DNA of 64,000 nt from Proteiniphilum sp. (GTDB taxonomy: Bacteria; Bacteroidota; Bacteroidia; Bacteroidales; Dysgonomonadaceae). The notes below the pieces were generated by a model that saw only the letters and a program-made list of their open reading frames with translations, was not told the DNA's origin and ran no database searches. The stretch is from positions 1-64,000 of the forward strand of contig JADMKJ010000176.1 of NCBI GenBank assembly GCA_015478855.1, read 5' to 3'. Position numbers and translations under genes: made by a program. How positions within the stretch are numbered: the stretch's first letter is position 1; each line of letters starts with the position of its first letter. Below, in pieces: positions 16,019 through 19,478 of this stretch.

Positions 16019-17221
16019 TTACCTGTCGAAGCGATAATAGTGTAATAAGGGGTCTGTTTCTCCGGCAAGGATCTTTAAAACCAGATCCATCCCCTGCACA
16101 GAGAAGGTGATTCCATTGCCTCCCAGCCCCAACACAAAAATGGCATTGGGGAAATCGGGATGCTCTCCGATGTAGGGAAGTCCATCTTTTGTGACCCCAA
16201 AAGCACCTGCCCAGCTGTAATCCTCAGTGAAGCGAAGTGTAGGAAAGAGATCCTCAATTTTCCGGTTTAAACGGGCTGTTTTTTTACTTTTAATCTTCTC
16301 ACTGATGCCGTTGTACTTATGGGGGATATCTTCACCACCCACAAGAAGTCGTTTATCGTCGGTGGTTCTCATATAGATATAGGGTTCTGCTGTATCCCAT
16401 ATTAATACATCTTTCAGGAGGGGGTAGAGGTTAAAATCCTCTTCACTCACACATGCAAACGTACTGATTACATCTGCATATTTCTGTTTGAACATTTTCA
16501 ATGTCTCAAAACCGGAACAGTAAATGATCTTTTTACATGATATCGTAAAGCCTTCCTCTGTAATCATCTCAACACCATCAACACCGTAGCTGAACTTTTC
16601 GACGGAAGTATGATCAAATACCCGCATTCCACTATCATGATTTTTTTTAATCAGCTCATGTGCTGTCTTAAAAGCGTCGATAGAAGCTCCCTCTTCAGAA
16701 AGGATGCCGGGATGAGATGTCATATGATAACGTGATTTTATCTCTTCCGGGGTAAGCCATTCCACATGAAAACCATGTTTTTCTCTATAAAGATACTCTT
16801 TCTTCAGGTCATCAATCGCCTTTCTTGAATGAGCTACCTGGAGAGATGTTTTACGTTCAAATCCTGTGTCAATATGTTCTTTCTTCACCAGCGATTCCAG
16901 GGTGCTGATAGATTGAATCCCAGCCCGGTAGCATTCAATTGCTCCCTGTTCTCCAATCATTTCTGCCAGCTTGTGCATCGGTACATCTATCTCGTACTGA
17001 AGCATGGAGGTGGTGGCCGATGAGCTGCCGGTGGCCACATCGCGCTTGTCAATCACAACAGTCCTGAAGCCTGCATTATGCAAGGTGTGGCTTATCAGTG
17101 CACCTGTGATGCCACTGCCAATTACAGCAATATCACACTCAATATTCTCCTGCAATGAAGGGTAGCTGTGAAGAATACCGTTTTTTAAAAGCCAGAATGA
17201 TTCGGGAGATCGCAAGTTCAT
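16019..17221 (-). CDS. FAD-dependent oxidoreductase (DAO family)
   Basis: CDIAVIGSGITGALISHTLHNAGFRTVVIDKRDVATGSSSATTSML. Confidence 0.8.
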   Translation of the reverse strand: MNLRSPESFWLLKNGILHSYPSLQENIECDIAVIGSGITGALISHTLHNAGFRTVVIDKRDVATGSSSATTSMLQYEIDVPMHKLAEMIGEQGAIECYRAGIQSISTLESLVKKEHIDTGFERKTSLQVAHSRKAIDDLKKEYLYREKHGFHVEWLTPEEIKSRYHMTSHPGILSEEGASIDAFKTAHELIKKNHDSGMRVFDHTSVEKFSYGVDGVEMITEEGFTISCKKIIYCSGFETLKMFKQKYADVISTFACVSEEDFNLYPLLKDVLIWDTAEPYIYMRTTDDKRLLVGGEDIPHKYNGISEKIKSKKTARLNRKIEDLFPTLRFTEDYSWAGAFGVTKDGLPYIGEHPDFPNAIFVLGLGGNGITFSVQGMDLVLKILAGETDPLLHYYRFDR

Positions 17222-17371
17222 GATGTAAATCTTTAGAGTGTTCAACTTAGAACAAGTTCAGGATTTATTTTGTTTACTCAATGTGAGTTATTAAGGTCGC
17301 TTTAACCAGAAATAGGAAAAACCGATAATAGATTTTAACCATTATACAGAATCACTTGTGTAGATAATTAC

Positions 17372-17379
17372 TATCTTTG
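17372..17379 (+). promoter_or_regulatory. -7 element TATCTTTG upstream of metK leader
   Basis: TAnnTTTG match just before the riboswitch-like element. Confidence 0.55.
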
Positions 17380-17392
17380 CATCATAATCACA

Positions 17393-17446
17393 GTGTGGAA
17401 AGATTTGAACTGCTTGCAACCACAGAAAAAAATGCTAAAAACCAAT
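17393..17446 (+). ncRNA. SAM-II-like riboswitch candidate in the metK 5' leader
   Basis: P1 TGTGG (17394-17398) / CCACA (17420-17424); loop GATTTG....GCTTGCA; downstream AAAAAAATGCTAAAAA, the SAM-II conserved layout; directly precedes SAM synthetase. Confidence 0.6.
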
Positions 17447-17590
17447 TTCTGCATTTCTTTTTCTTGCTACGGTTTTAAGGCTTTTCTTGCTCGTTAATAT
17501 ATTGAACCATTGGGTGAGTCGACTTCTTTCATTGTAGATGATACATGAACGGAGAGAACATCTTTATGAAAGCCCATATTTATAAGAAAA

Positions 17591-18901
17591 ATGAACATGC
17601 ATTATCTCTTTACCTCCGAATCGGTGTCAGAAGGACACCCCGATAAAGTAGCCGATCAGATTTCGGATGCTTTGCTTGATGAGTTCCTGGCGTATGACCG
17701 CGACTCAAAAGTAGCTTGCGAAACCCTCGTGACCACCGGGCAGGTGGTGCTGGCGGGTGAAGTAAAATCCCAGGCATATGTAGATGTAGCCGAAGTAGCC
17801 CGCGATGTAATTGCCCGTATTGGGTATACAAAGAGTGAATATCGCTTCGAAGCACAATCATGTGGTGTTTTCTCCAGTATTCATGAACAATCAGATGATA
17901 TTAACCGTGGTGTGGATCAGAAAGCCGATCCAATGGATCAGGGTGCAGGCGACCAGGGGATGATGTTTGGTTACGCTACCGATGAAACCGAGAACTATAT
18001 GCCGCTGCCAATCGATCTGAGTCATGCATTACTGCTGGAACTTGCCAACATCCGCAAGAACGAGCCGGAGCTGATGCCTTATCTCCGTCCCGATGCCAAG
18101 TCACAGGTTACAGTCGAATACAATGAGGAGGGTGTGCCACAGCGCATCGTCGCCATTGTACTCTCCACGCAGCACGATGAGTTTGAAATACCAAATGCCA
18201 ACACTAAAGAGGCTGCACTGGAGGCTGATAAAAAGATGCAGTCACACATCAAATCTGATGTGAAGACGATTCTTATCCCCCGCGTAAAAGCCCAATACAA
18301 AGGGCGTAAAGATGTACTCAAATTGTTCGAAGGTGATATCACCTATCATGTGAATCCCACCGGTAAGTTCGTGATTGGCGGTCCACATGGTGATACCGGA
18401 TTGACAGGTCGTAAAATCATTGTGGATACCTATGGCGGTAAAGCACCTCATGGGGGTGGTGCTTTTTCCGGAAAAGATCCCTCCAAAGTAGATCGTTCAG
18501 CTGCCTATGCAGCAAGACATATAGCCAAGAATATGGTTGCGGCGGGCGTAGCCTCCGAGATGCTGATACAGCTCTCCTATGCTATTGGCATTGCTGAACC
18601 GATGAGCATCTTCGTCGATACCTATGGTAAAAGTAAGCTGAAAATATCAGATGCAGAGATAGCCAGTAAAATTAAAACAATGTTCGATTTACGGCCCAAA
18701 GCAATAGAGCAAAGGCTCGCCCTACGTAATCCCATATATTTCGAGACCGCTTCATACGGACATATGGGTCGTGAGTGCAAAGTGGTGAAGAAGGTTTTTA
18801 ACTCTCGCTACATGTCGGAACCGATAAAAGTGGAAGTGGAACTTTTCACCTGGGAGAAGCTGGATTATGTAGATCAAATAAGAAAAGAGTTTGGATTATA
18901 G
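17591..18901 (+). CDS. metK: S-adenosylmethionine synthetase
   Basis: [59 protein letters not shown]. Confidence 0.97.
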
Positions 18902-19478
18902 TGTAGTGGTATATTGTGCGTCCAGTTCGCAGATCGATCAACATTATTTCGATGCTGCGGCACAGCTGGGTGAACTTCTCGCCCTGAACGGGATCATCTG
19001 TATCAACGGTGCGGGCAAGCATGGACTGATGGGTGCACTGAATGATTCAGTGCTCAGAAACGGAGGTAAAGTTAAAGGAGTTATCCCTCGTTTTATGGCA
19101 GATGCAGGTTTGGGACATGATCATCTTACCGAAACCATCATCACCGAAACAATCCATGAGCGGAAGGCTGCCATGGCATATCAATCAAATGCGGCGGTAG
19201 CACTTCCGGGAGGGGTGGGGACGCTTGAAGAGCTGGCAGAGATCATCACCTGGAAGCAGCTGGGTTTGTACAGTAATCCCATTGTCCTTCTTAATACAGA
19301 TCACTATTACGACCACCTGCTCGCATTTTTCGATAAGATGATTGAAGATAAATTTTTGAAATCAGCCTATCGCGAAATATGGAAGGTTGCCAATAACCCC
19401 GCAGAAGTGATTGACTATCTTAAGAATTTCCCTGACTGGGATCCCTCTTTTACCAAATATCACGAAAAAGAGTTGTAA
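18891..19478 (+). CDS. TIGR00730/LOG-family Rossmann protein (cytokinin riboside 5'-monophosphate phosphoribohydrolase-like)
   Basis: [22 protein letters not shown] (PGGxGTxxE); TTG or GTG start overlapping metK. Confidence 0.85.

Follow-up and report, generated by a model that had tools for sequence, protein, structure and literature searches.

A long-loop SAM-II riboswitch ahead of metK in Proteiniphilum and a candidate anti-aptamer expression platform

The leader of metK, the SAM synthetase gene, in the window (the whole 64,000-nt stretch of Proteiniphilum DNA analyzed here) raises the question of whether it houses a SAM-II riboswitch and, if so, how such a switch could act on its gene. 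SAM-II is the textbook riboswitch that hides a Shine-Dalgarno sequence. Bacteroidetes messages do without Shine-Dalgarno sequences (PMC6847099). Our best explanation overall, to which we give a probability of about 0.8, is that the leader carries an RF01726 SAM-II switch of metK in which a SAM-bound pseudoknot competes with an anti-aptamer fold, providing feedback.

A whole-window Rfam scan returned RF01726 (SAM-II long loop) as the sole family above its gathering threshold in the 64 kb. The match lies on the forward strand at 17389-17448, spans the full length of the model (1-60 of 60), and scores 59.7 bits against a gathering score of 44 (E = 5.8e-9 over the whole window). An earlier note, made from the letters alone, had proposed a SAM-II-like riboswitch in the metK leader, and the covariance-model match, the conservation among relatives, and the SAM synthetase that follows all bear this out. 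The two models named for checking it did not match: in a permissive scan of 17200-17700, alphaproteobacterial SAM-II (RF00521) reached 17 bits, below its cutoff of 36, and SAM-V gave zero Rfam matches up to E = 5. It is the SAM-II class that stands, in the form of RF01726. The letters that the note had picked out are in place, namely, TATCTTTG at 17372-17379, TGTGG at 17394-17398, GATTTG at 17402-17407, GCTTGCA at 17412-17418, and CCACA at 17420-17424, followed by an A tract and then GCTAAAAA at 17434-17441. The sequence evidence supports assigning the element to the Bacteroidetes long-loop form of SAM-II, with SAM as the presumed ligand of the aptamer. The features are collected in Table 1.

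Table 1. Features of the metK leader and gene, in window coordinates.
Feature	Position	Strand	Basis or remark
Bacteroidetes-type -7 promoter box TATCTTTG	17372-17379	+	23 nt before P1
SAM-II aptamer, long-loop form (RF01726)	17389-17448	+	covariance-model match
P1 5′ strand TGTGG (GTGG core 17395-17398)	17394-17398	+	pairs with 17420-17424
GATTTG, putative third strand of P2 triplex around SAM	17402-17407	+	conserved in relatives; role by homology
P2 5′ strand UUGC	17414-17417	+	partner by family layout
P1 3′ strand CCACA	17420-17424	+	model alignment, relatives
A-rich L3 strand; doubles as 5′ side of putative nested alternative helix	17425-17433	+	covariation
GCUAAA, P2 3′ strand, with bulged U of putative SAM site	17434-17439	+	role by homology
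3′ strand of putative nested alternative helix (GCATTTCTTTTTCT)	17451-17464	+	pairs with 17424-17435; MFE fold of window leader
Putative anti-aptamer strand	17465-17486	+	pairs with 17397-17418 (P1 5′ strand and L1)
metK, SAM synthetase	17597-18901	+	ORF; start MHYLFTSE by alignment with relatives

The riboswitch itself is a new locus of an already known family, and its bare annotation is ordinary. RF01726 is present in 58 of the 61 sampled genomes of the window's taxonomic family and in 199 of 295 for the order, and the window's own genome carries one SAM-II riboswitch. We fetched 161 riboswitch loci for comparison, and a tblastn search with the window's MetK protein placed metK downstream of every one, so that the gene that the earlier note had read as SAM synthetase is the constant neighbor of this RNA. 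One genome (G315) holds two SAM-II copies (L046 and L161), each with metK downstream, which suggests two riboswitch-controlled SAM synthetases. The start of metK was set by the MxYLFTSE sequence conserved in relatives; another in-frame ATG lies at 17591. In one sister genus (L048, L051, L056, L057, L144, L148, and L155), a small hairpin with varying arms (such as CTGTTTTTTTAACAG, CTGTTTTATAAACAG, and CTGTTTGTCAAACAG) immediately precedes the metK start region. At its other end, metK in the window is overlapped by an ORF at 18891-19478, LOG-type nucleotide hydrolase-like by a GGVGTLEE motif read by eye, which may be cotranscribed with metK under the riboswitch. The -7 box proposed in the earlier note gains support from the relatives: 139 of the 161 loci have TAnnTTTG no more than 45 nt before P1, and a control stretch taken farther upstream has it in 6. 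In the window, we saw no -33 TTG at the usual distance.

Within the aptamer, P1 is complementary in all 161 loci and both of its sides are changed in 6, where GTGG/CCAC becomes ATGG/CCAT (3 loci), GCGG/CCGC (2), or GGGG/CCCC (1); the TGTGG/CCACA helix drawn earlier is therefore conserved in relatives with compensatory variants. The P2 core we take, from the SAM-II layout, to be UUGC 17414-17417 with GC(U)AA 17434-17438. Its strands are invariant across the 161 loci, a conservation that is not independent because the locus parser demands them. The P2a extension shows covariation in some of the order (TTG/CAA 32, CTG/CAG 10), but the window has lost it or keeps it only very weakly (CTG against ACC), and it is weak or lost in much of the window's family. 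The P2 suggested in the earlier note, TTG 17405-17407 with CAA 17443-17445, is not the P2 of the RNA family, although calling the helix a weak point was fair, given the state of P2a. The role of GATTTG as a P2 triplex strand follows the SAM-II and SAM-V structures (PMC6061858).

The loss of P2a, together with a window score below that of many relatives, is what could speak for a fortuitous match or for a riboswitch that has decayed and lost SAM binding. We consider this highly improbable: the score is well above the cutoff, the core nucleotides are intact, the element is strongly conserved over the taxonomic family and order, and P2a is weak in the remainder of the window's family as well. Just as improbable, in our estimate, is control of metK through the SAM-gated translation of a leader peptide initiated at the AUG at 17432-17434 (in AAAAAAAUGCUAAA). 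Of the 161 loci, 150 have this AUG, the A-rich stretch leading into it is favorable for initiation in Bacteroidetes, and in the window it opens a 21-codon ORF. However, the median length of its frame, 21 codons, is also that of the other free frame, the lengths and sequences of the leader ORFs vary widely, their register with metK is random (54, 46, 61), 11 loci have UUG, GUG, or CUG in place of the AUG, and the AUG is paired in both states. Since UGC is required for P2, the AUG is accounted for by the aptamer, and we rejected the leader peptide for want of a coding signal across the 161 loci.

How an RF01726 switch could reach metK is suggested by the leader beyond the aptamer, which is antisense to the P1 5′ strand and L1. 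This complementarity beats shuffled leaders both outside the window's family (paired t 10.5) and within it (3.6), and in the window it scores 24.0 versus 15.7 for shuffles. The MFE folds join the 5′ half of the aptamer to downstream sequence by at least 8 bp in 157 of 161 loci, compared with 111-125 when the downstream part is shuffled. We then asked whether leaders favor their own aptamers as pairing partners over aptamers dealt to them from the set, from which near-identical loci had been removed (114 kept). Order-wide they do, with z 7.9 and none of 5000 deals as good. Dealing partners leaves relatedness in place, so the controls were the same test on pairings that are unable to form helices: the parallel complement gave z 1.4, the same-strand repeat z 3.3, and the reversed repeat z 2.1. 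As further controls, upstream sequence gave z -0.5 and metK coding sequence z -1.6. The anti-aptamer helix is well separated from all five. Examples of the anti-aptamer pairing are TGACTGATTG with CAATCAGTCA (L030), GATTTGATTTGCTTG with CAAGCCAATCAAATC (L106), and GGAGAGATTTGATTGA with TTAATCAAATCTCC (L134), and the clear covarying loci also include L127, L136, L099, and L130. Within the window's family, the covariation by this test is weak (z 1.8 to 2.7).

A nested helix accompanies the anti-aptamer strand. Order-wide, the first L3 bases pair with the stretch after P2 better than with dealt partners (z 6.6, 0 of 2000), while the controls gave z 2.5 for parallel pairing and z -0.1 for repeats. 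The bases just after P1 (AGG, GGT, AGT, etc.) are antiparallel complements of UCCU, UACC, and UACU situated 4-12 nt past GCUAAA, with z 5.9 against dealt partners. At the level of sequence, then, both alternative helices are supported by covariation across the order.

Both helices also appear in the MFE fold of the window's leader (17393-17490), with 17397-17418/17465-17486 outside and 17424-17435/17451-17464 inside. An RNAalifold consensus of 13 family members recovers them as GAACUG:CRGUUY, GCAA:UUGC, and AAAUGC:GCAUUU, with one-sided changes only. Taken by itself, the window leader does not fold with significant energy (z -0.9, or -1.4 with only the downstream part shuffled). Because this energy is not significant and the family covariation is weak, with one-sided changes, the case for the platform in the window depends on homology across the order. 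The earlier note had also foreseen an alternative hairpin acting as expression platform, formed by AAAACC 17438-17443 with GGTTTT 17471-17476. It was right in kind but wrong in the partner: the 6-bp complementarity is real and unconserved (relatives have AAAACG, AAAAAA, and similar), and we rejected this hairpin. GGTTTT sits in the conserved anti-aptamer strand, where its conserved partner is GAACTG 17407-17412 of the aptamer loop.

We propose that, in an RNA starting just past the -7 box, SAM would favor the P1/P2 pseudoknot. When SAM is absent, the later-made anti-aptamer strand would capture the P1 5′ strand and L1 in a long stem, inside which the A-rich L3 strand would pair with the stretch after P2, undoing the aptamer. 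Because this fold uses strands of P1, L1, L3, and part of P2, the pairings imply that it would exclude the SAM-bound pseudoknot. High SAM would presumably lower metK expression as feedback. A likely route is that the SAM-bound state would leave the anti-aptamer strand single-stranded and exposed to termination or decay; this freed strand is G-poor and C/U-rich. Rho entry or decay on it is possible and only a suggestion, because G-poverty is also expected of a strand that is antisense to a purine-rich one.

Other ways of reaching the gene were considered. The metX SAM-II switch and SAM-V act by direct occlusion of the RBS (PMC6061858, PMC10907184). In the window no SD-type site is present in P2, and the RBS is neither inside nor next to it, the metK start codon lying 157 nt past GCUAAA (outside the family, relatives have 51-292 nt). 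With the start codon this far away, in a phylum without Shine-Dalgarno sites, direct RBS occlusion cannot apply, and we rejected a translational switch of that kind. We also rejected the idea that, once SAM is bound, the freed strand sequesters the metK start: outside the family, real leaders do no better at this than shuffled ones (t -0.5), and the hiding of the start in the window's family is small (t -2.8). The distance from the alternative stem to the start codon is no more constant than the length of the leader as a whole.

The direction of the switch deserves separate weighing. The same aptamer could serve as an ON switch if the anti-aptamer stem were a SAM-free intrinsic terminator and SAM permitted read-through into metK. 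U-rich bases after the stem would suit such a terminator, in the direction opposite to OFF, and there is indeed a local U peak at the stem end: the eight bases directly after it hold a mean of 3.97 U versus 3.09, at least 6 of the 8 are U in 35 of 157 loci (22%, against 7% expected), and one locus (L077) has, ∼34 nt past GCUAAA, an anti-aptamer stem with eight U directly after it, which makes a convincing intrinsic terminator shape in the presumed SAM-free state. Most loci, however, the window included, have no U-run after the stem, and a terminator scan of the window gave none. SAM activating its own synthetase would moreover be positive feedback, whereas the known members of SAM-II work as OFF switches (PMC1273637, PMC9373788). 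We regard the ON arrangement as unlikely, if less so than the decayed aptamer or the leader peptide. By precedent and by feedback logic, OFF with SAM is likeliest, with roughly two chances in three, and it is the direction that we adopt for the RF01726 switch of metK.

Among known systems, RF01726 itself (Weinberg et al. 2010, PMC2864571; Bacteroidetes and marine sequences) is matched over its full length, in the same taxon and gene context and with no differences in the aptamer. The Rfam model ends at the aptamer, so that the downstream alternative helices are outside of it. By name or accession, the long-loop family appears in the literature searched only in PMC2864571 and one machine-learning paper. 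We found no account of an RF01726 expression platform in the literature searched, and an earlier description is possible. With RF00521 (PMC1273637) and the Sinorhizobium meliloti metA and metZ switches (PMC9373788), the window element shares the layout of P1, GATTTG, GCTTGCA, A tract, and GCTAAA as well as the presumed control of methionine/SAM genes; their long stable P2a helix, the SD sequence of the metA switch, and the terminators after P2 are absent in the window. With SAM-V (PMC6061858), it shares an H-type pseudoknot, a short P2a, and a nearly identical SAM site (the window's pseudoknot and SAM site being predicted by homology), but in SAM-V a P3 hairpin separates P1 from P2 and an SD sequence is hidden. 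Set beside these systems, the Bacteroidetes SAM-II switch on balance seems to use a platform that is not described in the literature searched, in which a downstream antisense strand and a nested L3 helix would refold the aptamer competitively with no SD sequence nearby, giving OFF by way of the G-poor strand or else SAM-dependent read-through. The covarying anti-aptamer strand offers a concrete, testable answer to how SAM-II could act where messages lack Shine-Dalgarno sequences (PMC6847099), and if it is true, the family model could be extended by the platform strand and the phylum's other riboswitches screened for it.
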